Part shown: in pieces, positions 1,611 to 18,502 of the stretch
Layout: every line of letters starts with the position of its first letter
Position numbering within the stretch: position 1 is the stretch's first letter
Origin: Zoopage sp. CT-All
Taxonomy: Eukaryota; Zoopagomycota; Zoopagomycetes; Zoopagales; Zoopagaceae
NCBI GenBank assembly: GCA_004114245.1
Contig: QZWS01000163.1
Location: 1-20,265, forward strand
Direction of reading: 5' to 3'
Length of the DNA: 20,265 nt
Made by a program: the position numbers and the translations under genes
Notes under the pieces: generated by a model
What the model saw: only the letters and a program-made list of their open reading frames with translations
The model's database searches: none
Told to the model about the DNA's origin: nothing

Positions 1611-2942
1611 TCACGCCCAGACTTCGCGAACCCATCGCGAGAGGTCCACTTCGACATGCATCCAGCGCTGGACGAACGGGTGCTGCAGCATCTGTGCAGG
1701 CGTCGGCCGGTATGCGGGATCCTTTATAAGGCTACGGACGATGTGAAAATAGACAGCGACGCGGTATTATGCCATACCAGCAGTGGACAAAATCGCGCAG
1801 ATCATGCGACCAGCCCTCTGTCTCGGGCAGCTCGGGAATAGGCATGCTTACGACGTAGTCAAGCAGCTCAAATGGCGCTAGTGGAGGATGGCCGGCAGGT
1901 GGAAAAGGAAATCGATTTTGAGCAATCTCGAGAATGGACAGTCCAAGACTCCAGACGTCCGATCGGACATTGTAGCCACCCCCTTTGATTCGTTCGGGCT
2001 ACCCACAGCGTCAGAAGCGACGACCGAGATCGCAGAGGCAGCTTGCCGCCATGTAGTAGCTTGTGCCCGTAAACGTCTCGGCAATGGAATTTACTAGTTC
2101 TCCGCTGACACCAAAATCGCAGAGCTTGACCTGCCCGCTGCCATTGATAAGGACCTGGCTGAATTAGAGCACATGGCAGACAACGACTGTGTACGTTGCT
2201 AGGCTTCACGTCGCGGTGTATAATTCGCCGTTGATGAAGGTATACGAGACCTTGGAGCACCGAACTGGCAATCTTGCCCAAAACACCCTCTCCAACGCGT
2301 GCTTGTCGCTCCCGCACTCTCTTGTAAATGCCGTCCAGGGATCCACCCTCACAAAACTCCATGAATATTTCAATGTCGCCCTGCTCGATATACGCGCCGT
2401 AGTACGTGACGATGTGCGGAGAATTGCATCGTCGCATGGCTCGGATCTCGCGAACGATTTGCTTCTGGACGTCGGGGTTTGGGTCCGCCAAGATGGCCTA
2501 ATTACCATGAGAAACATCAGCAGCAAACAGAGACCACCTTCTTCGCCATGATGATGCCCGTGGGCTCGTGCAGGCACTTGAAGACGGCCCCAGCGGAGCC
2601 CTCGCCCAACTTGCCAAGCATCCGCACGTCTTCGCTCTTGAGCTCGCCAACCGCAGCCACCTCGGGCGATAGCATATCATCCCCGTTGATCACAATCGCG
2701 TAGTTTTTGAGACTCGCGCTCGCGAATGCGGCGGAGATGGTGCTGCTTGGGGCATTGTCGCCATGCGATGAGCCGGGTGCTGAGCCGGGCGCCGAGCCGG
2801 GCGTGCCCTCGCAATCGCTGTTGCCCCCCGAAATACCTCCGTTGCCTAGTCCGTTCGGGAGCTGTAGGCCCGTCTTGTTGCGGTTTTTTTTGACCGGCTT
2901 GGATGCGTTGGAGCGGGCCAGCGACGCCATGGCAGCTGTCAA
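1611..2942 (-). CDS. MKK1: MAP kinase kinase of the cell-wall integrity pathway (Mkk1/Mkk2/Pek1 type)
   Basis: Five exons on the minus strand: 2942-2538, 2497-2195, 2154-2047, 1998-1778 and 1731-1611 (1158 nt, 385 residues). The kinase domain is complete: Gly-rich loop GEGSAGAV near residue 115, catalytic Lys in MAKK near 134, HRDVKPSN with Asp about 231, DFG near 249-251, and the MAPKK activation segment [10 protein letters not shown] with the dual sites S259 and T263, followed by [29 protein letters not shown] and the C-terminal VREVW are characteristic of the Mkk1/Pek1 branch, which phosphorylates the Slt2/Pmk1 MAPK, rather than the Ste7 or Pbs2 branches. The N-terminus is Ser/Gly-rich with three GSAP repeats. 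Intron 1 may end one codon differently (donor at 2537 or 2534). Intron 3 is GC-AG. The branch assignment is from remembered motifs; the MAPKK call is firm. Confidence 0.9.
1999..2046 (-). other. GC-AG intron in the MAPKK gene (48 nt)
   Basis: The exon ends ATGGCG and the intron begins gcaagc and ends gggtag. A CTGAC branch-like motif lies 11 nt before the acceptor. Splicing joins Met-Ala to Pro-Glu-Arg, rebuilding the invariant kinase MAPE(R) motif exactly. No GT lies near the junction that could keep this motif; reading through gives a stop within the intron. Confidence 0.85.
2770..2805. repeat. 12-bp tandem repeat, three copies, inside the MAPKK N-terminus
   Basis: Three copies of gagccgggYGCY lie in the coding region and encode the Gly-Ser-Ala-Pro repeats of the disordered N-terminal region of the kinase. 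Such in-frame repeats can vary in number between strains. It has no other visible role. Confidence 0.7.
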
Positions 2943-3412
2943 ATGTAATCAGAAGATTTCTCCCGATCACCGGAGGGGTGCTACTGGTTTCTCTCTCCAC
3001 CTGGGTGACGCTGCCGCACTCTGAATCTCTGTGGCGCCAATATTAGCTGTTGGCAGGAACACTCCGAGTCTGCGATATCCCTGCTGAGCTCACTCGCACT
3101 GGCTACCAACACTCACGCGTCTGGTGGTGATCGGATCGCTTTTGTCAGACAACATCGCTGCCTCGCCATCCTTGTGAGTAATACCATCAAAAGCTGACCT
3201 GGTGCGGTAACAGCATACTGATAGCTCATCATGCTCGCTTGCACATCGAGTCATTGAATGAATTGGTGCACACGCATCGTCCGCCGTCATTGAGCGCTTT
3301 GACGGACACGTATGCGCTGCGTGATGGTGAAAAGACAGGCCTCGTGGCCGGGTGCCAGTGACGGATCGCAATGACGTGGCAAATCGTCAACTTTTACTGA
3401 TAAAGGAACAAT
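2943..3412. other. intergenic: MAPKK upstream region and MINDY 3' flank
   Basis: A 470-bp gap between two minus-strand genes. It should contain the MAPKK promoter and 5' UTR (right after 2942) and the 3' UTR of the MINDY gene. I see no domain-bearing frame, tRNA or clear repeat; the short open frames here (for example 3090-3371 on the minus strand) have no protein-like features. Confidence 0.5.
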
Positions 3413-5804
3413 TTACATCAAGACACACTTCTCCTTATCGTCGTTGACACTGTTTGACTGCTGATGCCGACGATGATCGGCTTTAGTCATATGTGACTGA
3501 GGCTGCGACTGAGACTGCGGCTGCTGAGCATGCCGTTCGCCCTGAGGCTGTCGTTGCTCGTGCATTCGCCTTCGACATTCCGCTGCTTCCGCATCCTCCT
3601 GTTGCTGCAAGCTGATTGCCAATGCTAGACTATGACTGTTTCAGCAACAGGCCATTCAACGTACGGCTTACTCGGCGTCAACGTTTTGGCCGCCATCATA
3701 TGCTTCCGGCTGATGATAAACGGGGTCGTGACTCGATTCGGCAGGAATGGGTTGAAATGATGAGTCCAGTAGTAGGGATCCACGTCCATAGACGTCCATC
3801 AAGCTCTCCCAGACAACAGCACTTCGGTTGAGATACCCAGCATCCGTGACCAAGAGGTACAACTGGTCATTGGCTGGATGCTTGAATATCGTGGCAAACT
3901 AAGAAATATGGCTAAAATAGTACGCCCATATGCACATACGTGATTATTGCGGAATAGAACGCCAAGACCAGCGGTGGGAAGCGACTCTCGCAGCATATCG
4001 AGCCCGAATGAGGTCAGCTGTGACGCAGTCTGCTCCAAGAATTGCCTTGCTATGAGTGCTATTGACCATCATCACAGGAAACGGTTATTGAAGCAACGCT
4101 ACCGTCAACAATGATGTCTTGCTTGTCTGGCAACGGTGGAGATGTCTGGTCCGCTTGAGCACTGGTCTGTCTGGAGACATATGCGCTGCCAGACGGGGTT
4201 TCAATCCCAGCCCAATCTCCATGAGCTATCAGCTCCGTTACGCTATTGTAGCTCCCTCCGCAACGATCTATGAGAACACGCCAATACTCTGACAAGTCTG
4301 GATCAAGCACCCAGCCATGAGCAAGCTCGACAGCGAAAGCCTCGAAAACAGCCATGTTGTCCGAGGGAGAGAATTTTCGCGGAGACTTGAAATTAACGTC
4401 GACATCGAGACCACGAATGAGGCCAGGGAGGTGGGTGAGCGCTAGGGTGGCGGCAGCGCTACGGTCAATGGCATCCTGCACCATTCGAGGGTCGTCAACG
4501 TCCGTGTCCGTCTAAATGGGGATTGTAATGGGGATTTTCATATTTACAGCCTCACATTGGCATCTTCCATGGCAAAAAGAAGACGCTCGGCCAATAAATT
4601 GACCAGGTAATCGTTGGTAACGAATGGTCGATCCGGTGGCGTGATCTCTAAATCGCCGCGTAATATAAGAACGTTTGCTAGCCAAGGGCATAGTTAATCT
4701 ATGAGTTACGCAGCACGTTCACAAACCGATGGCGATCAATGGGCATGGTCCGTTGAGGTTCTGCGTGACAACCCGCACCTTGACTTTGCGATCTGCGTTC
4801 CACCAGTCAATGGTCTTGAGGTAGTACTTGTCGGCCTCATCATCATTGCTCATGGGCACATTTGCATCTTGAAACACGGGCGCCTTGCCTTTATCTTTAG
4901 ACACTGGTGGCGGCGGATATGCTTCCACGGCGGGTGCTGCTTGGGCGGGTGTCGATGGGTTGCGAGGAAGCATGAAAGGAATATCTTTGGCCGGCGTCTT
5001 TGGCGGTTCATCTCTAGCGTCGCATGCTGGAACCGCAGACGGGAGCAGAGTGATTGAAACAGGCTCGGCGACCTCAGCTTGGGTTGGTGTAGAAGGCGGC
5101 GACGGAAGAGCTTCCTTCTGCGCAGGAGCAAAATTAGATTGCATGGCATCGGTGTCAGCAGTAACGATGGCATTTTCAGGCGTCTGAGGCGGCGACGGAA
5201 TGGACATGGGCATGGAAGGCTGCAACACGGAGGTTGACGGCGCATTAGCCGAGGAATCAACCATAGCAAGGACGTGGATTGGCGGAGAAGGCTGCGATGA
5301 TGAGAGCACATCATGCTCGTTGGGCGAATCAAGGGAATAGGCGATGGATTCAGCGTTGGTGGGAGCAGGAGTAGTATCGGTCGGAAGGGTCGGCAACGAG
5401 ATTGGTTCAGCAGCCTGCAAGTGGGGCATGGCTTCAGCCTCCAGCAAGTTGTTAGATTCGCCTTGTACCGACACTGCGGCATCGAAGTTTGCCGAGACGG
5501 AATGACCCGAACGGTGCTGCAGCGACGGCCCGCCCGGTTGATCGGAAGCCAGGTCTACAGTCGTGCCCGTATCGGGCTTGTCCGATGCTTCCAACACCCT
5601 GACACTGCTTTCAGGTGCATTTTCCTGGAGCTGCCGCTGAAAATGCCACTTCACATGGTGATCGACAATATGCACCCCAAAAACGTCCTTCTCGCCGCTC
5701 AGCTGCACGGCGTCGATGGTGCCAAGGTTTGGGTGCGGCGCGACGAAGAGAAACTCGTCGTCCTCCGTATCGGTGGTAGCCGCGGCGGCGTTGTCGGGGT
5801 GCAT
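3413..5804 (-). CDS. MIY1: MINDY-family K48-ubiquitin deubiquitinase with C-terminal UIM-like motif and CaaX box
   Basis: Six exons on the minus strand: 5804-4727, 4677-4556, 4511-4103, 4058-3940, 3898-3672 and 3629-3413. They total 2172 nt and 723 residues; introns are 49, 44, 44, 41 and 42 nt, all GT-AG. The first about 320 residues are Pro/Ser/Thr-rich and probably disordered. The MINDY (FAM63) domain follows. TQNLNGPCPL carries the catalytic Cys (about C354) and oxyanion Gln (about Q348), then come NDYLVNLLAERLLFA, ELAHGW and CGGSYN, and FRNNH carries the catalytic His (about H576), followed by LYLLVTDAGYLNRSAVVWESL. A DADLALAISLQQQ stretch is ubiquitin-interacting-motif-like. The protein ends KCVLM, a farnesylation-type CaaX box, as is predicted for yeast homologues. 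An upstream in-frame ATG at 5888 would add 28 residues, but it overlaps the J-protein start, so I chose 5804. Confidence 0.88.
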
Positions 5805-5860
5805 GGCGAGTGGTTGGTGGGAAGCGTGACTGCACAAGCCAAAGCAGACCACGAGGGCAA
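5805..5860. promoter_or_regulatory. 56-bp divergent intergenic region (MINDY / J-protein)
   Basis: The chosen start codons of the two head-to-head genes lie only 56 bp apart, so promoters and 5' UTRs must overlap the neighbouring transcript or coding region. No TATA or CCAAT box is evident. If the upstream MINDY ATG at 5888 or the J-protein ATG at 5810 is used instead, the coding regions themselves overlap. Confidence 0.4.
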
Positions 5861-7219
5861 ATGGCCACCATCTCCGTGACTGCGCCAAGAGCCACCCGCA
5901 TGTCCGCTGTCATCGACGCCACGCGCCCGGCGCATGCCCACGTCGCCTGCGCGTCGTGCACCCAGCCGCTCGAGTTCCCCATCCCCGTGGGCCCGGCACG
6001 AGTGCGCTGCTACCACTGCAGGGTCGTGTTCGAGCACCCCGTCGCTGCGGCCGCGTCCGAGGACGCCTTCGCGGCGACGAATGGCAAGGACGAGGCGGAG
6101 GATGCGAAGCGACGCAGTGCCAGGGCGGGTGCTCGGTCGTGGGGGGGCGCCAAAGCCGGCTCGGACGAGAGCCCCGCCTCCATGGAGTACTACAACCTGC
6201 TCGAGGTGCCGGCGACCGCCACCGCAGAGGACATCAGGAAGAAGTACTATCGGCTCGCGGTCAAGTACCACCCCGACAAGAACAAGGACGCGGGGGCCGA
6301 GGAGACGTTCAAGAACATCTCCAAGGCGTACCAGGTGCTCTCGGATCCTGACTTGCGGAAGAAGTACAACATGTATGGCGAGAGCGGCGCGTCGCCCGAC
6401 GGCGGCTTCGTCGATCCCGAGGAATTCTTCCGCCAGCAGTTTGGCGGCGAGAAGTTCTTTGATCTGATCGGCAACATCTCCATCGCCCAGGACTTTTCGT
6501 CAATGATGACCAAGGACGAGATGGACGACGATCCAGAGGCGCGGGCCAAGCTCTCCGAAGCCGAACTCATCCAGCGCCGCGCCGACCGGGAGATCCAGCA
6601 GAGGAAAATCGCAGAGCAGAAGGAGAAGCTGCACAAGGAGCGCGTCGATATGCTCGCGGGCAATCTCAAGCGCAAGCTGAACGTCTGGGTGCAGTCGGAT
6701 GGGAGTCCGGATGCCCTGGCGGCGTTCACCGAGATCCAGCGAATTGAAGCAAATGATCTGCGTGGCGAGTCATACGGCGTTGAGCTACTGCATGCGATTG
6801 GGTATACATATGCGGCCAAGGCCCAGCAACATCTCGGCGGGGACTACCTTCTCGGCCTGCCAAAGTTCTTCGAGCGAGTGCGGGAGAAGTCTCACATCAT
6901 CAGCGAGACGGTCTCAACCATCCGCACGGCGGTGGATCTACAGCGCAGCTTTGCCGAGCTGCAGCAGGCAGATAAAGAGGGGAAGCTGACTGCCGAGGAG
7001 AAGGTCCAGATGGAGCAGCGCGCGACGCAGCAAGGCCTAAGGGCATTGTGGAAGGGAAGCAAGCTAGAGGTCCAGTCGGTTTTGCGCGAGGTATGCGATT
7101 TGGTGCTCGAGGAGTCGGGCGTGCCAAGGGAGCAGCTTAAGAAGCGCGCCGTGGCACTCAAGGTGATCGGCGAGGCGTACCAGGCAGTGAAGCCAGAAGG
7201 CGAGTTGGCGCAGAAATAG
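5861..7219 (+). CDS. J-domain co-chaperone with DnaJ-X domain and N-terminal zinc ribbon (Caj1/Djp1-like)
   Basis: This intronless frame encodes 452 residues from ATG 5861; in-frame ATGs at 5810 and 5900 are alternatives. Residues 30-53 form CASC...CYHC, a CxxC-x16-CxxC zinc ribbon with an LSD1-finger-like core (LEFP, VGPARVRC). After a charged linker comes a canonical J domain (about 108-175) with YYNLLEV, KKYYRLAVKYHPDKN (HPD at 137-139), ISKAYQVLSD and RKKY. This activates Hsp70 ATPase. The rest matches the DnaJ-X region of yeast Caj1 and Djp1 (GGFVDPEEFFRQQFGGEKF, then a long helical part to the end). There is no Gly/Phe region or DnaJ zinc-finger domain, so it is a class C (type III) J-protein. 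Its role is probably cytosolic or peroxisome-related protein folding or import, by family. GC content is visibly higher than in flanking genes. Confidence 0.9.
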   Translation: MATISVTAPRATRMSAVIDATRPAHAHVACASCTQPLEFPIPVGPARVRCYHCRVVFEHPVAAAASEDAFAATNGKDEAEDAKRRSARAGARSWGGAKAGSDESPASMEYYNLLEVPATATAEDIRKKYYRLAVKYHPDKNKDAGAEETFKNISKAYQVLSDPDLRKKYNMYGESGASPDGGFVDPEEFFRQQFGGEKFFDLIGNISIAQDFSSMMTKDEMDDDPEARAKLSEAELIQRRADREIQQRKIAEQKEKLHKERVDMLAGNLKRKLNVWVQSDGSPDALAAFTEIQRIEANDLRGESYGVELLHAIGYTYAAKAQQHLGGDYLLGLPKFFERVREKSHIISETVSTIRTAVDLQRSFAELQQADKEGKLTAEEKVQMEQRATQQGLRALWKGSKLEVQSVLREVCDLVLEESGVPREQLKKRAVALKVIGEAYQAVKPEGELAQK

Positions 7220-7318
7220 GACAGAGGACGTCATTTGTGTATCAGCTATTAAGTTGTGTGAATGCTGTTTCTGAAATCATGCTTCATGTGGATGCACTGA
7301 GGAAGATATGTCACCGGG

Positions 7319-9287
7319 CTACCAACAGCGAACAGAAAGCACCGCGGCGATCAATGCAAACACCCCACCTGCCCGCAGCACCCACCCCACAGACTCGTAT
7401 TGTCCGGTCGTCAGTGCAAGATCCTTGGGAGGATCGCCGATATAGGCGAATATGGCCGCGCATAGCAGAATACTTAGAAACTGTGGCAGAACAACAAAAA
7501 CATTGTGAATGCCGAGCACAACGCCAGAATCCAACGGTTCGTTTAGGCGACGCTGTGCTGCGCCTGTTGCGATTTCCTCGCCGGCTATATCGCTCGACGT
7601 CACGGGCGTATATGTCCCGCTGGGATATTCGTCCTCTTCATCCTCGTCGGGGAGCCCGGCCTGCCAGCGACGCATGAGCTTGGCGCACTCTTCCCCGATC
7701 ATTGCAAAGGGCGCCCAGGTGGCCACTGCCATGGACACGCCACAAGCTGCAATGATTTGAATCGCATCGGATACGTCCTGTGCCCACCATGTTGCGACAA
7801 GCATGGCCGCGAGCCACGCCAAGGACCAGGTCCAAATGCGGCGCATGCCAAAGATGCTTCGGGTGTAGCGACCAAAGAGGCGATTCAATATTCCTGTCAA
7901 AGTCGGCAATAGGATAGAGGCAACGAGGGCGGTGAGGGCATGCAGGAATAGCGCCAGACAGCCAGTGCGGATGGCCGCATCCGGGAACCCGGGTTCCTTG
8001 GGCGAGTGTGTTCGCAAAAGGACCTCAAGAATCCAAGTCGTGCTTCAAATGTGTCAGTCACAGAGTCGACTAAGGGGTGATACCTGTAAAATAGGAAAGG
8101 AAACCAGGCCATCCATGAAAAGAACTGGACGATGCAGATCCGGGCAATTGACAGGGGCAAGCGCGGGATGGCTGCAAACGCATTGAGGAGTGGCCGCCAC
8201 CACCCACGCACCTCGCCCACATCCCCGTCCCATTGCATCTCGCTCGTCCACAGGCAAGTCCATAGCACACTGGTGGAGAAGACTGCAGCAGCAATTAAGC
8301 AGAGCGCTTCCATTTGCGTGTCGACTGGGATCTCGGGGAAGAGGTCGAGGAGATCGAGAAGACCAGCGAAGTAGCCAAACACTGCACCTACTTGTATCAT
8401 GAATGACGCAAGTGCGTTGGCGCGGGATTGATGGCGAATGGCTGCGCGGTCAAGCACAAGAGCACGAGCGGTGGCCTGGACGGCATTGATGGCGAAATCA
8501 AGCACGAAGAAGCCGACTACAGCACATGCGATCGCTACATTGGCAATCTAGCGGGAGATGAATTAACAGGGCTGATCAGCCTGACGCTACCGTATTTTTC
8601 GAATGCTGCTTATCCGATGCGACATAGCTAAGGAGCATCTTGGCGAGCGGCCGAGCACGGGCAACAAGAAACAGCCCAAAGAGCACGAGAATTGCGCCTA
8701 GAAGCATATACGGCCGGCGTCGACCGATTCGAGATCGACACTGATCGCTATACGCACCGACCAGAGGCTGCATCAGCAGGCCTGACAAACGAGTGAGTTT
8801 ACATCATTGATCAGGAACGAATGCTACGAACCGGATAAAGGGCCAGCGACCCAAACGAGGGATAATAGCTGCTTAGACAAACCAAGTTCGAGCAAATAGG
8901 GTGTTCCGTATCTGCAGGTTGGCAACGTAAGAGGCGACAATTGAGAGGCTGGTCACCCACGCAAGCTCCACGGTCCCTAGAACAGTGCAGAGTATTAGCC
9001 AAAGCGAGTGAACCACGCCACTCACACATAAATTGAATGCCGCACAAGCATACGGACGCATTATACAGCGACAGCCACCCAGACGCCGGCTTGTCGTCAA
9101 CGTTGTCGAGAGAAGCGAGGCGCTGCCGTCGCCGCTCTGCCCGCGCCACGCCCTGCGGCAGAATGAGCTGCTCGTCGGCGGTGCATGAGGCGGCCGATAG
9201 CTGGCGCGCGTGGAACGACGGCGGAGCACGCGTGGGGATTGCGCTGGCGAGGAGGGGCCGTGCTTCAGGATCGGGCTGGGCGGGCAT
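7319..9287 (-). CDS. SLC45/GPH-family sugar (sucrose or alpha-glucoside) H+ symporter
   Basis: Six exons on the minus strand: 9287-9026, 8976-8961 (16 nt), 8911-8832, 8781-8591, 8547-8084 and 8042-7319 (1737 nt, 578 residues). Introns are 49, 49, 50, 43 and 41 nt, GT-AG. Joined exons give the family's motifs in order: GIQFMWTVELAYGTPYLL in helix 1-2, LGLSKQLLSLVWVAGPLSG, MQPLVGAYSDQCRSRIGRRRP (the loop 2-3 signature), VVGFFVLDFAINAVQATARA, then FSWMAWFPFLFYSTTWI and a second hydrophobic half with about six helices and an acidic central loop (DEDEEDEY). This is the plant SUT, animal SLC45 and S. pombe Sut1 family of proton-coupled disaccharide carriers; the exact substrate cannot be read from sequence. 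It is convergent with the J-protein gene (99-bp gap) and divergent from the methyltransferase. Confidence 0.88.
8961..8976 (-). other. 16-nt micro-exon of the sugar carrier gene
   Basis: Flanked by two 49-nt GT-AG introns (9025-8977 and 8960-8912), this exon encodes most of W-T-V-E-L-A in the conserved first helix. Including it restores the family pattern GIQF-x-W-x-VEL-x-YGTPYLL. The exon is not a multiple of three, so skipping would shift the frame. Confidence 0.8.
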
Positions 9288-9385
9288 ATGTGAAAGTTGA
9301 AGGTCACATGAGCGGGCGAGGCGGTCCATGTGGTCAGATCGGGAAAATACGCTCGTGGCTCACCACTCGCGACGCTTCTCAACAT
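9288..9385. promoter_or_regulatory. 98-bp divergent intergenic region (sugar carrier / tRNA methyltransferase)
   Basis: Head-to-head start codons at 9287 (minus) and 9386 (plus) leave 98 bp for both promoters. No clear TATA box or repeated site is seen. In-frame upstream ATGs on both strands (for example 9329 minus) would shorten it further. Confidence 0.4.
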
Positions 9386-10611
9386 ATGGTGGTCGATGGC
9401 TCCCTTGCCAGCGCAGCAAAGAACACAGCAACGGATGACGCTCCGTGCGCAGCATTTGGCAGCCGGCTGCTGGAGGATGCCGACCGGGTATTTGACTTCA
9501 ACGCCTGGTGCGTGACAGCACCTTCCGCCACTGCCTGCTGCTGACAGTCGTTCTGCGGCGGTGCCAGGGACAAGATAGCGTGGGGCGAGGAGCAGATCGA
9601 GCGTGCGGAGGCAATTGTTAAGGCGCAGACGGCCGCAGCGCCCGAGGTGGCCGGTGCGTTCCACGCCCCCCATCACTCGCCTTTACCCACCGCTTGTGTC
9701 TTAGACAAATTAAACAACACTCCCGCGCAGCAATGGGACAAGTTCTACCGGCAGAATCAGAACCGGTTCTTCAAAGACAGAAACTGGCTGGCCCGCGAGT
9801 TTCCCGAGCTGTATGAGCCTATTCCCGCTGGAACGGTATTGTTGCGCTTACTCCTGGATCAATATTCTAGCATTCTGAGCTAGAAACGAGTGGTATTGGA
9901 GGTAGGTTGCGGCGCGGGAAATACTGTGTTTCCGCTACTGCAGAGCAACCCGGATCCGAGCCTGTTTGTGCATGCCTGTGATTACTCTGCCGAGGCCGTT
10001 GCTGTTGTGCGCGTATGCATCCTTGTATTGATCACTGCTCTAAGCAATTGCCTAGGGATGCCCAAACTATGACACGAATCGGTGCCGCGCAGAGATTTGG
10101 GATCTGGCTGGCGATGCGCTCCCACCCGGTCTCGAGCCTGCCTCAGTCGATGTCATTGTGCTCATCTTTGTGCTATCTGCACTCAAGCCCACGCAATGGC
10201 AGCAGGCCCTGGACAATATCTACAAGGCAGGTCGCGGTTCTATGCTTGCTCTTCAGTGAGTTGACCAGCACACAGCTGTTGAAGCCGGGTGGGTTCGTTC
10301 TCTTCCGTGGTTAGCAGCCTCCTTGGTCTTTTCCGGTGGTAAATACTGCACTAGACTATGGTCGCTACGACCTGGCCCAATTGAGATTCAAATCTGGCCG
10401 ACTGCTGGAACCGAACTTCTATGCGCGCGGCGACGGCACACGCGTCTATTTTTTCAGCCTTGACGAGATCGCTGCTCTGTTTGGCGCGCAATTCACGATT
10501 CTGCAGAACACAGACGACAGGCGGTTGATTACTAATCGCAAGCGCCAGCTGCAGATGTACCGTGTGTGGTTGCAGGGCAAGTTTCAGAAGAGTCATACAT
10601 TCCTTGAATAA
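9386..10611 (+). CDS. TRM140: tRNA N3-methylcytidine (m3C32) methyltransferase, Trm140/METTL2 type
   Basis: Seven exons: 9386-9507, 9568-9653, 9705-9835, 9884-10012, 10056-10226, 10276-10309 and 10355-10611 (930 nt, 309 residues). The joined protein shows the family's ordered motifs: [41 protein letters not shown], the SAM-binding motif [82 protein letters not shown] and a C-terminal [16 protein letters not shown]. The protein transfers methyl from SAM to C32 of tRNA-Thr/Ser/Arg types. [14 protein letters not shown] and MYRVWLQ favour METTL2/Trm140 over METTL6. It lacks the actin-binding N-terminal extension of S. cerevisiae Abp140. Intron 5 is GC-AG. Intron 2 (9654-9704) is 51 nt, stop-free and inferred from homologue spacing. 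It is convergent with the WW gene. Confidence 0.9.
10227..10275 (+). other. GC-AG intron in the tRNA methyltransferase gene (49 nt)
   Basis: The exon ends TACAAG; the intron begins gcaggt and ends cacacag. Splicing joins NIYK to LLKPGGF, the conserved motif. The nearest GT (donor gtcgcg at 10231) leaves phase 1 and puts the next exon out of frame, so GC is required unless the exon is mis-sequenced. Confidence 0.85.
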
Positions 10612-10622
10612 ACAGTGTTTCT

Positions 10623-10731
10623 CGCCTATTCAATCTCGAGCCGCCATTTGCACCCGCTCCACCACTTGCACCGCTCCACCACTTGCACCGCTCCACCACT
10701 TGCGCCTACTCAATCTCGAGCAGCCATTTGC
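10623..10731. repeat. duplicated 3' end of the WW gene plus 17-bp tandem array
   Basis: A 29-bp segment at 10703-10731, which contains the last codons and stop of the WW gene, recurs at 10623-10651 with two mismatches. The copies are exactly 80 bp apart in the same orientation. The downstream copy still encodes Lys-Trp-Arg-Leu-Glu-Ile-Glu-stop on the minus strand. Between them are three head-to-tail copies of a 17-bp unit (cgctccaccacttgcac) at 10655-10671, 10672-10688 and 10689-10705, the last with one mismatch. The repeat fills the short gap between two converging genes. Confidence 0.9.
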
Positions 10732-11638
10732 GCCGACTCAACTCCTTCTTCTCCTTGCGCTTTTTGATGGCCCGTGCTAGCTCCTTCCTCGGTATGTTTA
10801 CTGCGCGACGTGCCTCCTCGCTCATGCCACGCTCCTCTGCAAACTTGTCGTAGTCAAAAAAGAACCCGCACTGGCGCTGCATACGCGCAGCATACGACAT
10901 GTGATCTGCAGCGTATCCAGCCTCAATCTCTCCGGTGCGGGGGTTGTAGCGCCCCCGGGCAACGTAGTTCGGGTCATGATAGCCGTATTTTGTCATGTAG
11001 TAGTTGTAAGGGTCGGATGGATCGTCGGTGAGGGCGAGCGATGGCACGGCTCCGCTGGCTGATACCTCGGGAGTGCCATTGCTGGAATCGGGTAAAGGGA
11101 TTGCGGGCTTCTCTGTCGTCGTTGTCTCAGCGGCATCCGTGGTGACGACAGCATCTTCGGACTCATCAAAGAACTCGCCAAATAAACGCTGTCGTTTCAC
11201 GCGCTCCATCTTATCAAAGACTGCGTCGAGTGCGGATTCATCGTATACGCCTCCATCATCCTCGTGCGCATGTTCGATACCCTCATGGTGACGTTCGGAT
11301 GGATCTAAGCTGTCGGCGTCAGCTGCGTGATCAGCAACAGATGTCACTGCTGCTGCCGCTGTCATTGCCGCCTCCGCATTCACAGCACCCTCCGAGTCCA
11401 TCATGCCACTATTTGCAGCGTATGGATTCTCCCACGTGGTGATCCCGGTATGCGTATTCCAGTAGTAATATGCGGCGGCGCTTGGATCCCAACAGGCGTG
11501 CCACTCAGCACTGGACAATGCACTCCCATCCGTCGCCCCCGAGGCAGCAACATTACTGTCAGCGTGAGCAGGATTTAGATCCGAGGCGTTGTCGTCGGTA
11601 GCTGGGCGCTTACGCGAGCGGATGTCGACAGAGGCCAT
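10706..11638 (-). CDS. WW-domain protein with conserved basic C-terminal region, probable nuclear/RNA-related factor
   Basis: This intronless frame encodes 310 residues. A KRP-containing N-terminus (possible nuclear signal) is followed by one WW domain at about residues 46-72: W46...YYYWNTHTGITTWENP, with W69 and P72. WW domains bind Pro-rich ligands. After an acidic, low-complexity middle there is a conserved C-terminal block: YNYYMTKYGYHDPNYVARGRYNPRTGEIEAG (cut here), MQRQCGFFFDYDKFAEE and a lysine-rich helix near the end. This resembles a family of uncharacterised fungal WW proteins with an FFDVDxxA-like motif and a basic tail; I recall it only in outline. The start lies 51 bp from the divergent zinc-finger gene. 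The stop region is duplicated just downstream. A splicing or transcription role is inference. Confidence 0.8.
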   Translation of the reverse strand: MASVDIRSRKRPATDDNASDLNPAHADSNVAASGATDGSALSSAEWHACWDPSAAAYYYWNTHTGITTWENPYAANSGMMDSEGAVNAEAAMTAAAAVTSVADHAADADSLDPSERHHEGIEHAHEDDGGVYDESALDAVFDKMERVKRQRLFGEFFDESEDAVVTTDAAETTTTEKPAIPLPDSSNGTPEVSASGAVPSLALTDDPSDPYNYYMTKYGYHDPNYVARGRYNPRTGEIEAGYAADHMSYAARMQRQCGFFFDYDKFAEERGMSEEARRAVNIPRKELARAIKKRKEKKELSRRKWLLEIE

Positions 11639-11689
11639 GCAGGTGGGCAGACAAGCTCAGCTCTGCACCTCGGCACATCCACGCATCCC
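11639..11689. promoter_or_regulatory. 51-bp divergent intergenic region (WW / zinc-finger genes)
   Basis: The shortest head-to-head gap in the window. It must hold both 5' UTRs and part of both promoters if the chosen ATGs are right. No recognisable core element is seen. Confidence 0.4.
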
Positions 11690-13546
11690 ATGAACCCAGC
11701 CGACCGGGACGTCGTGGATGCAAACGGGGCCCTGCTGTCACACGCATCGGGCACAGGTGATGCTGAACCCTCCGCGGGATCACCCATTACTCTGCCGCTG
11801 CCTTACTACACGCATCCGTCAGCTGCAACCACCTCGTATCCACCTTATCCAGGATACGCGTCATACTATCCGCCGCCTCCGCCTATGTATGATTTTCCTC
11901 GCTCCGGGTACCCCGCATACAGCTATCATAATCCAAATCAGTATCATCCATATACGCACCATCCTCCATATAGCAGTACATACCCAGCGCACTACCAATA
12001 TTCGACACAAGCATATCTCGAGTCAGGAAGCGAAGGTATTGCTAGGGATACAGCGTACAAGAAGCGCCCTTCTCACTCTGGCCAAGCATTCCAGACAGCA
12101 GCTTTATTAAAGAAACCAAGGATGGCCTATTCGACGACCGTCAAGTTGGATGCTTCCGTGCACTCATTTGTGGCAGCCTCAAGCGATAGTCATCCTTTGA
12201 ATAGCACTACTAACGGATTGGTGTTGGTACATGCCCAGTCGGGGTCAATTGTAGACGATGGTGGTGATCCAGCAGCAGAAAATGGCGTCACAGAGACAGA
12301 TATTGTCGAGAAGCTAGCGATGCATCGCAAGCCAAGGAGTACTGCCAAGGAGCAGACGATCGCTGGCCTTTATTATCCTGCCATTTCCCCCATGGCCATT
12401 GCAACTCCCGACAAGGTCTCATGGGAAGCTGACCTGCCCGAGGCACACAAAACGCTTATCCTCGATACCATCTCTCTTCCCGCTGCCGTCGCCACCCCTG
12501 ACCTTCCGCACCCCTGCCCTCACTGCTCCGCCGCTTATCCCCGCCGATGGGCACTCGCCTCCCACGTTGAGTCCATCCACTATGGATTCCGTCCATTCAG
12601 GTGCCAACTATGCAAGTCGTCCTTCAATCGATCGAATGACCTTCGGCGTCACATCGGGTACCATCAGCGCGATATTCTCTACACATGCCTCGGGTGTGGA
12701 AAGAATTTCTTGCGCGAGGATGGATTGGCAAAGCATGTCTCCAAGCGACGCACGCTACCGTGCTGGGATGAGTGGGCTATAGCTCGGAAGGCGCAAGGAA
12801 AAGACCTCGAGTATGATCCTAACGAGATGATCGCTCGCGAAGCCGCACAGGCTGCAGCAGCTGCGGCGACTGCAACTACAGCGGCAGAGGCTGCTACTGC
12901 TGCCACCCCACCAACCAAGTCCTCTGGCGTCAAGAAAGGCACTGTCGCCACTTCCAATCAACGTCCCACTGTCAAGTCAGAAAAGGCCTCCATGCAAGAC
13001 ACTATTGCATCCGAGATTGCCGCAAAACGCCGTTGGTTGCGCCGCCTGCGCAACCCCGTTGTGCAGCTCTCCTCGGCCGATCTCAACTTTGACGCAGGTA
13101 TACTTGAGCAGTCCGCGCCCATCGATGTGCTCGCCCCCATCTTTGGCGAGTTGATGGCCGATGAAACGTCGGTCTCCATCGACGATACCCTCGATATGAA
13201 TTGGCTCGACGACAACTGGATAGATCAAGATGAGATGCTCACCGATGTGGTGCTCAGCAAGGATGCATACACTGGCGAGGAGCAGGCTATGGTAGCGCTT
13301 GGACTTGGTGCAATTGCGTCCAAGACTGTGCGATGGAATGGGAACATGCTGCATTTGTGCAAGTTGCTCGAGACGGCTCTGCTCAAAGAGAGACAAGAAT
13401 TGGAGGAACTCGAGGGTGGCTATGAAGCGGCCGTGATAGAGCAAACTGAGCTGCGGGAACAGCTACGGCTGGCTGGCGGATCGCTTCCCAGTGACGATGA
13501 TGGCGATGCGAATGGTGCTCTGAGTGCCAAGCAAGTGGAGGTATAG
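11690..13546 (+). CDS. C2H2 zinc-finger transcription factor, three fingers, Tyr/Pro-rich N-terminus
   Basis: This intronless frame encodes 618 residues. The N-terminal 120 residues are rich in Tyr, Pro, His and Ser (YPPYPGY-like repeats), probably a disordered activation region. Three tandem fingers follow. Finger 1 is C276-x2-C279-x12-H292-x4-H297, finger 2 is C305-x2-C308-x12-H321-x3-H325, and finger 3 is C333-x2-C336-x12-H349-x8-C358, ending in Cys instead of His. A third finger closing with Cys is seen in Crz1-type calcineurin-responsive factors, but fingers 1-2 are not close enough to call it that. An Ala-rich run (about 384-410), an acidic segment (MNWLDDNWIDQDE) and a C-terminal coiled-coil-like region (KERQELEELEGGYEAAVIEQ) complete it. 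Targets are unknown. Probably nuclear. Confidence 0.85.
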   Translation: MNPADRDVVDANGALLSHASGTGDAEPSAGSPITLPLPYYTHPSAATTSYPPYPGYASYYPPPPPMYDFPRSGYPAYSYHNPNQYHPYTHHPPYSSTYPAHYQYSTQAYLESGSEGIARDTAYKKRPSHSGQAFQTAALLKKPRMAYSTTVKLDASVHSFVAASSDSHPLNSTTNGLVLVHAQSGSIVDDGGDPAAENGVTETDIVEKLAMHRKPRSTAKEQTIAGLYYPAISPMAIATPDKVSWEADLPEAHKTLILDTISLPAAVATPDLPHPCPHCSAAYPRRWALASHVESIHYGFRPFRCQLCKSSFNRSNDLRRHIGYHQRDILYTCLGCGKNFLREDGLAKHVSKRRTLPCWDEWAIARKAQGKDLEYDPNEMIAREAAQAAAAAATATTAAEAATAATPPTKSSGVKKGTVATSNQRPTVKSEKASMQDTIASEIAAKRRWLRRLRNPVVQLSSADLNFDAGILEQSAPIDVLAPIFGELMADETSVSIDDTLDMNWLDDNWIDQDEMLTDVVLSKDAYTGEEQAMVALGLGAIASKTVRWNGNMLHLCKLLETALLKERQELEELEGGYEAAVIEQTELREQLRLAGGSLPSDDDGDANGALSAKQVEV

Positions 13547-13759
13547 AATAAGTGTTGAGATATGACAGCTACCTTTGAATAGTGCCATTCAGTAGTTAAG
13601 AGACTGTTATGGCCACATGGCCTTGTAAAAGAATACTTTCTACATCTTCCAGCTCTACATCCTAATGATCTTGCCCAATTACCTATATTCTAACAATAAG
13701 GGCATTCGAACAAGCCGCGATTGTGTGCTATGCAAGATGTAGGACACTGTATTGGTATT
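13547..13759. other. 213-bp convergent intergenic region
   Basis: Lies between the zinc-finger stop at 13546 and the RAD4 stop at 13760, which point towards each other, so it holds two 3' UTRs. It is more AT-rich than the coding flanks. No gene is seen. Confidence 0.5.
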
Positions 13760-16343
13760 CTAGTCTGGCAGGATAAATCCACCCATGAGCTCCTTGTTTG
13801 CGATTGTCTGGAACTTGTCGGTGGCCTGTGGCAGCATCGATTCCCCCTCCTCCCCATAATCTGCAGCAAGACGAGCCCGCAGCTGGACACCGATGATAAG
13901 CTCGCGCCAGAGCGAAAATGCTCGCTCTTCGATCCGCTTCTGCTCCCGATCCGCACGCCGTTGCTCTTGCTCAGCATGGGCCTGGCAAGGTGGTCGTCAG
14001 AATTAGTCTCCAACGTAGAGCCTACCGCTAGCAAAGCGTCGGCATACTCTTCGGCAACAACAACGCCGTCTGTCAGAGGGAAGCAGCGATACTGCTCAAA
14101 TTGGAATCCAACTACAGCTTCGGCGACATCAATGCCAAGCTTCTTGGCAATGGAAGGAAGGCCGCGGTCTGTTGCATACATGAGCGATTCAGGTGCTGAT
14201 GTTGGACCTACACGGAAGGTGGACTGCACCCACGGGCAACATCCACGGCTGAAATAGGTCAATGTTTCCATAGCTATTCTTCGGTATGACGCCCTACAGA
14301 GATAAGGTTATTTTCGCAATACAGCGAGCAGAAATGCTACGTTCGCCACGGGTGGCGGCATATACAGCTCCGTTTGCCATTCACCATAAAGTCCGCTCAT
14401 AGGTGCCTCGCCGGTTTCCGCAATCTGGGCTTCTTTGGCGCGCTTTGATTGCATTGTCATTGTGCGCGACTTGGCCCACTTTACGGGATGCTCGCCTTCC
14501 TAAGCGGATGTTTATAAATCGCATGACAAAGCAGATTTGCCTTTATCTGTCGACCCTCTTTAAACCAAAGCTCGACAGTGTGCAGGTCCCTGAGACAGCT
14601 TCGCGGGTAAATTGCCTCTTTGCCGACATATCCGATAACAGGCTCCTTGGGATGGATAATTGAATACTTAGTCTCGTGCTTTTCGATGACGTAAAGTGGA
14701 TGGTTTCGCACGCTCTCGAGCGTTGTTGGCATTTTTGTGAGTTCTGCCTCCGTCAAAGCAGACTCTTGGACAACATCGGCATCCTAAAACACATGAAAAA
14801 GGGCCTGTCTTGTTGGAAACTTGCCAGAGGGTTTGGATCGGCAAAGAGAGCGCACACGTTTTCCCACCAACTTTGCCCCGAGTGCTTGTCAGCTGAGATC
14901 CGGAGTTTGCGCGACTTGGACCAGTGATTTGCATATCGAATCGTAACATCTCTTGCATAATTTCCTATAATTGGGGTCAGAATAATATGATGCCGCAAGC
15001 CAACATGCCTTGGTCAAACGATAGGCAATAGCTCAACACGCCACACTTGACGCGCTTTTCCAATGACGACGCATCAACGACCATGGCAGCATCGGCGTCA
15101 ACGCAAAGCCATTTTGAACTGGCCGGCTCCAACACCTCGCACCAAAATCCCGAGCAAGGGATGGATTTCGTCCTGTTCGCCTTGGTCCATTGTGTGGTCA
15201 GATCATCGTCACCATTGTTGACGTCAAAATCAGAATCATAGTCGGGCATTTTCCGCTTCCTGCTCGCCTTTGTTTTGTCGCTCTTTGGCGCAGACACTGT
15301 AAGACCACGGTTTGCATTTGCCTGAGATTTTGTGCACGCGATGGCAACCGGGTTGATAGCGACGACAAAGCGAGCACGATATCCTTGGCTTCGGAGTATG
15401 ATAACGAGTGCCAATACTCGCGTCAGCTGATCACCACGCAGCCGGAGCAGCGATTTTATATAGTGTCGTCGAACAGCACCCGCTTCCCACCACTTGACGT
15501 TCATGATATCGTTTGCGGAGGAGGTATCGTGACGATATCGCGCTTTCCACCAGCTCAATGCCCGATCGAGGGCTTCTGCGAATTTGTCAGCGCGAACTAC
15601 AGCTGCGGTCGTCCTTTTAAACATGGGCATGCTCAGGTCGTCGGGCAGGAGCGATAGGAATCGAGCCTGCAGACCTGGATTGTCAAGAACGGCAGTGTGA
15701 TGGCGCCAGAAGGTCAGCAGACAGAGAATGTGCGCCTGATGGGTGTTGCGCTGGATTTGACGGTCGATTTTGGTTATCCCACGCTGCTTGGATCTATTAC
15801 AACATGGATGAGTTCTCGCGTCTAGATATATATGGCCAACTTTATCGCAGTGGCAGACTGAACAATGATCTGGACGCCATTCTCACTATCGGCGTGTCTC
15901 GGCTCCTCAGAGCCATCATTGTCGACGCCAGGAGAAGAATGTTGCGCACTCGCTGTGCTCTGTATCATTGAAGGTAGAACATCCTCGAACTCGTCATCAC
16001 TCTCCTTGACTCTCATCTCGGCATCGTCAATCGCTACGCGTGTCGGCGAGACGCTCGAGACGCGTTGCTTGCCATGCGCGCGAGTCCCCGCCATATTCCG
16101 TCGCTGCACCCTGGACGCGTCCATCTCCATAGGAGGAGACGGAAAATAGGGCGAGATTTGATCGCTCCTGCCTCTTCTGGTAGTTTGGCGACGCGCCGCG
16201 GTGCTGGAAGCCGCGAGACGACTGCTTTCCTCGACCATTGCCTCGAGCAATGCGCGCTTCAGCGGGAGTGATGTGGTGTCATTGTCTGATGCTTCCATGT
16301 AGTCGACGCCGGCGGATGCACGGCGCTTGGCTGGGCGGGGCAT
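13760..16343 (-). CDS. RAD4: Rad4/XPC nucleotide-excision-repair damage recognition protein
   Basis: Eight exons on the minus strand: 16343-15841, 15793-15009, 14964-14825, 14783-14541, 14499-14341, 14293-14212, 14168-14026 and 13981-13760 (2277 nt, 758 residues). The acidic N-terminus leads to a transglutaminase-like domain ([55 protein letters not shown]). BHD1 has [11 protein letters not shown] and [23 protein letters not shown]2 has [20 protein letters not shown] and [17 protein letters not shown]3 has [45 protein letters not shown] and [15 protein letters not shown] charged helical tail ends the protein. It binds distorted DNA with Rad23 to start global repair. Three consecutive introns (2, 3, 4) are GC-AG. 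Intron 1 borders are the least certain. The gene is divergent from NMD3. Confidence 0.92.
14500..14540 (-). other. GC-AG intron 4 of RAD4 (41 nt)
   Basis: The exon ends ATAAAG; the intron begins gcaaat and ends cgcttag. Phase 0 splicing joins WFKEGRQIK to [12 protein letters not shown], the conserved BHD1-BHD2 boundary. No GT near the junction preserves the frame. Confidence 0.85.
14784..14824 (-). other. GC-AG intron 3 of RAD4 (41 nt)
   Basis: The exon ends CCTCTG; the intron begins with gcaagt, the ideal GC-type donor, and ends gttttag. Phase 0 splicing joins FADPNPL to [15 protein letters not shown]. The overlapping GT donor 3 nt inside (aagttt, GT at 14820) leaves phase 1 and is out of frame with the tttag acceptor. 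Confidence 0.8.
14965..15008 (-). other. GC-AG intron 2 of RAD4 (44 nt)
   Basis: The exon ends CAAG; the intron begins gcatgt and ends attatag, with CTGAC 15 nt upstream of the end. Splicing gives [16 protein letters not shown], the conserved RDVT motif. A GT alternative exists (donor 15004, acceptor gcaag ending 14952) but would lose NYAR before DVT and needs a poorer acceptor. Confidence 0.7.
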
Positions 16344-16862: not shown

Positions 16863-18502
16863 ATGGAATACGAGCCCGAGATCCAGCAGCAGATGATTCT
16901 GTGCTGCCACTGCGGCACCCCCATCGCCGCCAACCCAACCAATATGTGCGTCGACTGCCTGCGCTCCCGCGTCGATATCACCGATGGCGTGCCCAAGCAG
17001 GCCATCATCCATTTTTGCCGCAACTGCGAGCGCTACCTGCAGCCGCCAAATCACTGGGTCGCCTGCCAGCTTGAATCGCGCGAGCTGCTTGCGCTGTGCT
17101 TGAAGAAGCTCAAACAGCTGTCGAGGGTGCGGCTGGTCGACGCCCAGTTTATTTGGACAGAGCCGCACTCGCGCCGCCTGCGGGTGAAGATCACCGTGCA
17201 GAAGGAGGTCTTTGCCGCCGCCGTGCTGCAGCAGGCGTTCGAGGTCGAGTTTGTGGTGACTGGGCAGCAGTGTGAGGCGTGCCAGCGCTCGCAGGCCCAG
17301 AATACCTGGAAGGCGCTGGTGCAGGTCCGCCAAAAGGTGCCGCACAAGCGCACGTTCTTGTACCTCGAGCAGCTCATTCTCAAGCATGGTGCGCACAGGG
17401 AGACGGTTAATATTAAAGAATCCAAGGATGGCTTGGATTTCTACTACGCACATCGCGGACACGCCGTCCGGATGTGCGAATTCTTGCAGCAGGTTGTCCC
17501 CGTTCGCACCAAAACCTCGGAGCAGCTCATCTCCAAGGACATCCACAACAACACGTCGAATTACAAGTTTACGTATTCGGTTGAAATTGTGCCTGTTTGC
17601 AAGGACGATTTGATCTGCTTGCCCAAGAAGCTGGCCAACTCGCTTGGGAATATCACGCAGCTGGTGCTCTGCACGCGCATCGGAACCTCCATCCAGTTGC
17701 TGGACCCAAACACGCTACAATGTAGGTGCATTCCTTGCGTATTCTCGTGGTACTGATCGCATGCATAGCTGCTGATCTGACTACACAAATCTACTACCGC
17801 TCAACCTTCATGCCGCTCTGCACTACCCCACAACTTATCCAGTACGAAGTCCTTGACGTCGAGCTGCTCGGGCCCACGCGCGGGCGCCTTGCACTCGCCG
17901 ATATCCTTGTCGCGCGCACCTCAGACTTTGGTCGCAATGACACCACCTTTTACGCCCGCTCGCACCTCGGCAACATCCTCAAGCCTGGCGACGCGGTGCT
18001 CGGATATGATCTCTGTCGCTCCAACTTCAATTCGGACGAGTTTGACTCGTTGAACCGCGGCGAAGTAACCGACGTGATGTTGGTGAGGAAGAAGTACCGA
18101 GACGATAAGCGGAGGAATCGTGGTCGCAAGTGGCGTCTGAAGCGCATGAAGAAGGGCGAGGAGGAGGATGCCGAGAGCGTGGCTGGAGGCTCGCGGCGTC
18201 GTCCAGCCGCGGATAAAGAACGCAACGAGGACGACTACGAGGCCTTTTTGCGTGATCTCGAGGAGGACCCCGAGTTGCGCGCTAATATTAACCTTTACAA
18301 GGTTGGCGCCGGGGCTGCATCCAACAGTCGCGATGTTGCCATGGGCGATGCAGCAGACAATGGAGCAGTGGCCGATGTGGAGGACATTGGCGAGGGCGAG
18401 GACGAAACTCCCGAGGTGCCGCTGGAGGAGCTCTTGGAGGATTTGAGAATTGGCGATAGTGACGAGAATGGTGACGAGGATATTATGATGGCTGAAGTGT
18501 AG
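16863..18502 (+). CDS. NMD3: Nmd3, 60S ribosomal subunit nuclear export adaptor
   Basis: Two exons, 16863-17721 and 17769-18502 (1593 nt, 530 residues), separated by a 47-nt GT-AG intron with an ACTGAT branch-like site. The N-terminus has paired zinc-binding Cys motifs (C14-x2-C17, C29-x2-C32, C52-x2-C55, C68), followed by a further CEAC, typical of the Nmd3 treble-clef region. ILCCHCG, FCRNCERYLQPP, VQVRQKVPHKRTF and DFYYAHRGHAVRM are strongly conserved. The C-terminal part ends with a basic stretch (KKYRDDKRRNRGRKWRLKR) acting as a nuclear localisation signal, then an acidic, Leu-rich tail (LEELLEDLRI) fitting the Crm1 export signal. Nmd3 joins nascent 60S subunits to Crm1. I chose ATG 16863 because homologues start near the first Cys motif. 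It is convergent with the SET-MYND gene. Confidence 0.95.

Follow-up and report, generated by a model that had tools for sequence, protein, structure and literature searches.

High shares of GC-AG introns have been described in some algae, namely 39.6% in Aureococcus anophagefferens, 22.2% in Micromonas pusilla and 7.7% in Chlorella sp. (Iwata and Gotoh 2011, PMC3033335), and the sequence of the U1 small nuclear RNA was judged by these authors an unlikely cause of the excess. The G+C contents given for the first two, 69.5% and 65.9%, are very high, and G+C appears there as a correlate, not as a strict rule (PMC3033335). In fungi GC-AG is the main non-canonical intron type, with a mean share of 1.009% (Frey and Pucker 2020, PMC7072748), and the curated annotation of Ganoderma lingzhi, in which some genes hold several GC-AG introns, gives 1.85% (PMC11590231). 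Here we describe the GC-AG introns of the fungus Zoopage sp. CT-All, starting from one contig of 20,265 nt (QZWS01000163.1, hereafter the window, always at its full length) of an assembly of 8.62 Mb in 419 contigs (GCA_004114245.1), and extending to samples from the rest of the genome.

Our samples put GC donors at ~7% of the introns of this fungus, a share nearest to that of Chlorella. GC-AG is the main non-canonical type here, as in fungi generally, but its level stands well above both the fungal mean and the value for G. lingzhi. As in the GC-AG-rich algae, the share is far above 1% and U1 does not explain it; GC-AG-rich genomes with this property are already known in algae, and the present one looks like a fungal case. 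No fungus with at least 5% GC-AG introns was found in the open-access literature, as far as its accessible text goes. The genomes of Eurytemora affinis and Oikopleura dioica are rich in GA-AG introns (PMC7072748), so that their unusual base at +2 is A, whereas in this fungus it is C, with at most one GA candidate (see below). We consider it likely that this early-diverging fungus has ordinary GC-AG introns of the U2 type, which have come to make up ~7% of its introns without a change in the U1 sequence. For annotation, about one intron in 15 of this genome would escape gene prediction restricted to GT donors, and genes such as RAD4 would be broken. Moreover, a fungus with raised GC-AG, moderate G+C and normal U1 would be naturally suited to testing what determines the tolerance at +2, a question left open by the authors of the algal study (PMC3033335).

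In the window, the 28 introns that we counted lie in six genes: RAD4 (7), a METTL2-like methyltransferase gene (6), a MAPKK-like kinase gene (4), a major facilitator superfamily (MFS) transporter gene (5), a MINDY-like gene (5) and NMD3 (1). Intron ends were extracted for 18 of them (one METTL2 row being ~2 bases off), and the ten MFS and MINDY-like introns were located by visual reading of the frames. A first-pass annotation had reported 29 introns in seven split genes; its total changes with our recount, while its five GC donors, one in MAPKK, one in METTL2/Trm140 and three in RAD4, were all found where it had placed them (Table 1). Its statement that each junction restores the frame and a conserved motif also holds. 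At all five junctions, frame and homology together demand a GC donor and an AG acceptor, and at none of the five sites did reading the frames by eye reveal a GT..AG pair in a suitable phase. In the MAPKK-like gene, the one window gene submitted to spliced profile alignment, the GC junction was picked under an equal penalty on every non-GT donor; it yields the conserved kinase motif MA/PERI (a slash marks the junction), which the GT-only alternative loses. In the METTL2-like gene, METTL6 aligns without a gap through the junction NIYK/LLKPGG (PDB search, 4.8e-61), and the PDB alignment of RAD4 with human XPC (2e-66) is ungapped at two of the three junctions, with one gap beside 14824-14784. The five GC donors are thus confirmed as sequence, and from the sequence we infer that the introns are spliced in the cell.

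Table 1. GC-AG introns of the window and the genes considered here, in window coordinates (a slash marks a splice junction).
Feature	Position	Strand	Junction or intron content	Basis
GC-AG intron, MAPKK-like kinase gene	1999..2046	-	GCG/gcaagc...gggtag/CCC, 48 nt, between MA and PERI	Frames and spliced profile alignment
GC-AG intron, METTL2/METTL6-like gene	10227..10275	+	AAG/gcaggt...cacacag/CTG, 49 nt	Frames and METTL6 alignment
GC-AG intron, RAD4	14965..15008	-	AAG/gcatgt...attatag/GAA, 44 nt	Frames and ungapped XPC alignment
GC-AG intron, RAD4	14784..14824	-	CTG/gcaagt...tttag/GAT, 41 nt, ADPNPL/DADVV	Frames and XPC alignment, one gap adjoining
GC-AG intron, RAD4	14500..14540	-	AAG/gcaaat...gcttag/GAA, 41 nt	Frames and ungapped XPC alignment
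RAD4 intron, ambiguous donor	14294..14337	-	Two in-frame cuts, at GTAGC or at the GC 3 nt downstream; taken as a GT donor
MAPKK-like gene	1611..2930	-	4 introns: 3 GT, 1 GC
METTL2/METTL6-like tRNA m3C methyltransferase gene	9386..10611	+	6 introns: 5 GT, 1 GC	By reading
RAD4/XPC gene	13760..16343	-	7 introns: 4 GT, 3 GC
NMD3 gene	16863..18502	+	1 GT intron, 17722-17768

The GC share of the window, 5/28 or 18%, has a probability P(>=5/28) of 8e-6 at a rate of 1%, a value to be read with the fact that the window was chosen because it looked extreme. We therefore turned to kinase and SNF2 genes elsewhere in the genome, chosen by family with their donors ignored, taken in three batches and passed through a spliced profile aligner blind to donor context. 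Clear introns numbered 88, of which 82 were GT (35, 30 and 17 by batch) and six were GC (in L031, L033, L035, L036, L057 and L070), i.e. 6.8% with a 95% interval of 2.5-14.3%. Not counted were introns located where the sequence is variable, stretches that may be in-frame insertions, and picks for which two solutions fit; 15 of the 21 GC picks of the aligner were dropped (L026, with a GT 3 nt upstream; L029; L030; the second site of L033; L040; two in L043; L046; L048; L054; two in L056; L060; L072; L075); a GA pick in L038 likewise stands outside the 88. Two of the GC junctions lie in ungapped PDB alignments, that of L031 with CDK2 (7.6e-112) and that of L035 with PDK1 (1.3e-88). Two further GC introns, from a set of 20 genome pieces, have the same kind of support: a phosphopantothenoylcysteine (PPC) decarboxylase intron in L004 (6.1e-50) and a Dna2 intron in L011 (3.5e-14), both within ungapped alignments. 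The probability of the family count is 2.7e-4 for 6/88 at a rate of 1%, and 0.009 for 6/89 at a rate of 2%. The GC share does not differ significantly between the window and elsewhere (Fisher p = 0.13), and the 18% of the window is a high draw. Overall, the GC excess appears to be genome-wide, to judge from these sequence samples, and amounts to several times the usual level, since the fungal mean is 1.009% and the curated basidiomycete stands at 1.85%. The strong over-representation proposed in the first-pass annotation thus persists outside the window, at a level of ~7% that is below its 5/29; the genome-wide donor count that it had suggested was made on the family samples, and the 6.8% is accordingly that of a sample, not of the whole genome.

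We then compared the 13 GC donors accepted in this work (five from the window, six from the families and two from the pieces) with respect to their pairing with U1. They carry G at -1 in 11 cases, A at +3 in 12, A at +4 in 8, G at +5 in 11 and T or C at +6 in all 13. Outside +1/+2, they form on average 5.1 of 7 possible pairs with U1, versus 3.1 for 59 GT donors (p = 2.6e-6). In a U1 small nuclear ribonucleoprotein (snRNP) assay, +2C gave stronger binding than +2A, for which a C-A wobble is the presumed reason (PMC4383343). A likely course of events is that a T-to-C change at +2 places C opposite A7 of U1, a mismatch that would be tolerated, and that the resulting GC donor would persist where the other positions (-1G, +3A, +4A, +5G, +6T/C) pair well with U1. 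Many such sites could then have been amassed through weak selection or T-to-C mutation pressure while the U1 sequence stayed unaltered, and the simplest reading would be that a normal spliceosome removes GC introns that are well paired elsewhere. Errors of sequencing or assembly that turned GT into GC would produce the same letters, and an assembly in 419 contigs leaves room for some; we nevertheless regard this explanation as extremely improbable, as the exons around the GC donors are open and well conserved, and errors would neither favour the +2 position of donors nor bring better U1 pairing.

A further approach used a small gene finder built for the analysis, with a branch-point term in its score, which was applied to the window and to 20 pieces of 10 kb each, with one extra donor dinucleotide allowed per run. 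Allowing GC raised the score outside the window by 76.5 nats, while 14 decoy dinucleotides raised it by 5.6-35.5, a gain that we take as supportive only. In the last run, 19 of 133 introns outside the window were picked as GC; among these, the PPC decarboxylase and Dna2 introns are the ones confirmed by alignment, and the one in L020 looks right by eye. In L018 and L015 another solution looked better than the GC pick, while the pick in L009 and the remaining ones stand as candidates. We take L020 to be WDR18/Ipi3-like, L018 to be UPRT, L015 a kinesin and L009 a tyrosinase. No rate was drawn from the gene finder because of its weak coding signal (0.027 nats per base) and the drift of its first version.

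Four of the gene-finder GC picks read GTA/GC and could equally be cut as /GTAGC. Such donors, in which the GT cut and the GC cut 3 nt later are both in frame, occur in the window at 14337-14294 and once each among the gene-finder introns of L011, L014, L017 and L020. By their sequence they could give rise to two protein forms one residue apart.

Several points weigh against a genome-wide excess of ordinary GC-AG introns. A single reader, to whom the donors were visible, decided which introns were clear; the difference in U1 pairing is partly circular for the same reason, the GC donors having been chosen by a reader seeing them, and the 59 GT donors, which come from the kinase alignments, are aligner output without hand filtering. 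Training of the gene finder already permitted GC, and the 14 raw GC picks that it made beyond the window fall inside the decoy range (6-15). Without context, GA nearly equals GC as an allowed donor over 41 kinase stretches (gain of 202 versus 214, other decoys 47-146). When all donors were allowed, a flank cut-off of 8 left 56 GT, 6 GC, 5 GA and no more than 3 for each remaining dinucleotide, and a cut-off of 12 left 40 GT, 5 GA and 3 GC. Finally, the account of the algal cases by high G+C fits this fungus poorly, because its G+C is only 51-56% (window and 20 genome pieces) as compared with the very high values of Aureococcus and Micromonas. If one gives full weight to the small samples with their wide interval, to the choice of an extreme window and to the near-equality of the GA decoys, the true rate could be 1-3%, as in many fungi, with our samples being high draws or containing misread junctions. 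We hold this to be quite unlikely in view of the P values of the family count, and of the flanks of the GC picks: those of the 21 aligner picks are donor-like and those of 255 decoy picks are not (mean score 0.24 versus -0.79, p = 5e-5, picks within one locus being non-independent).

The five GA picks were inspected individually. For L041 and L053 a good solution with GT exists, and the pick in L056 may be an in-frame insertion. In L024 (G000:C256:13900-15100, reverse, ~522-615), the kinase junction KPE/N/FLID fits GT..AG only as two adjoining introns of 47 and 44 nt separated by a 2-nt exon (AT); the alternative, a single intron with a GA donor, loses the catalytic-loop Asn. In L038 (G000:C44:10400-11500, position 534), an intron of 43 nt reading AAG/GAATGT...gcattag/CCG is needed to join DLK/PDN in a divergent kinase, and the aligner gave no GT solution. 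It could be a genuine GA-AG intron, but also an error or the sign of a gene in decay.

Is the splicing machinery itself changed? The sole U1 match (L002, G000:C309:31256-31418; 61 bits, short of the 69.5 that Rfam sets as gathering score; 41 of 147 candidates were scored) has a 5' end that reads UAACUUACCUUG. Positions 3-10, ACUUACCU, which pair with donor positions -2 to +6 and in which A7 faces intron +2, are standard. No U1 matching GC, i.e. with G at position 7, was found: a scan of the whole genome for exact ACTT[A/G]CCT upstream of an Sm-like site gave only the normal gene, with one chance match in a backward control of the pattern. The kept A7 and the failure of this exact-pattern scan to find a second U1 argue against an altered U1. 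The ACAGAGA box of U6 is also intact. The suggestion in the first-pass annotation of a relaxed or altered recognition of the 5' splice site by U1 is therefore unsupported by these RNAs, and the comparison of U1 5' ends that it had proposed showed no change at positions 3-10. Minor (U12-type) introns were ruled against by the absence of a U11 small nuclear RNA match (RF00548) at E <= 1, with 39 of 383 candidates scored. As a separate observation, the U1 gene departs from the Rfam consensus at two positions, with A instead of U at position 2 and U instead of G at position 11; the U at 11 could pair with the A that is frequent at donor -3.

Among the proteins, U1-C gave one match (L065, G000:C282) and LUC7 gave two, of which one is a full gene and the other a weak LUC7-like match, so that for Luc7, which the first-pass annotation had also named, presence is what was established. 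The U1-C sequence was compared with 119 homologues (120 of 288 matches, one unparsed), a set tilted to close kin, and all of the following refers to these matches as listed. Its zinc finger is nearest to that of Coemansia. Asn16 is peculiar to it, the homologues having Asp in 118 cases and Gly in one. F12, A19 and W28, at positions close to the RNA in the structure of the human particle (PMC4383343), also differ from human; a loss of U1-C contacts at these sites, striking against human and yeast, was rejected since other fungi share the changes, which occur in 77, 8 and 39 of the 119, respectively. A change in the 5'-splice-site machinery (variant U1, U1-C, LUC7, Prp8 or an RNA modification), such that +2C is taken about as readily as +2U, would agree with a GC share several-fold over the fungal mean and with the peculiar Asn16, and U1-C does fine-tune mismatched sites in vitro (PMC4383343). 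We find it unlikely all the same, with U1 and U6 normal in the parts described and the other odd U1-C residues common to other fungi; moreover, the GC donors still require extra U1 pairs, which is unexpected if +2C were fully accepted. A narrower form, about as unlikely, is that the lineage relaxed its reading of +2 through a protein change near the duplex of U1 and the 5' splice site (for instance U1-C Asn16, or Prp8), which would leave the U1 RNA normal while raising the GC-AG rate to a level very high among fungi, perhaps along with a few GA-AG introns such as the candidate in L038. We thus retain ordinary U2-type GC-AG introns, accumulated under an unchanged U1, as the preferred reading.

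As regards the setting, the NMD3 protein encoded in the window is nearest to those of early-diverging fungi, and its tree gives no finer placement; the nearness of the U1-C zinc finger to Coemansia makes membership of Zoopagomycota likely. The intron load is uneven: the CCT genes are mostly one unbroken frame, and many genes for kinases and repair proteins are split by several introns; the CCT and Ras genes held too few introns to serve as a donor sample. Introns are short genome-wide, 45 of 56 well-flanked GT introns measuring 40-54 nt.

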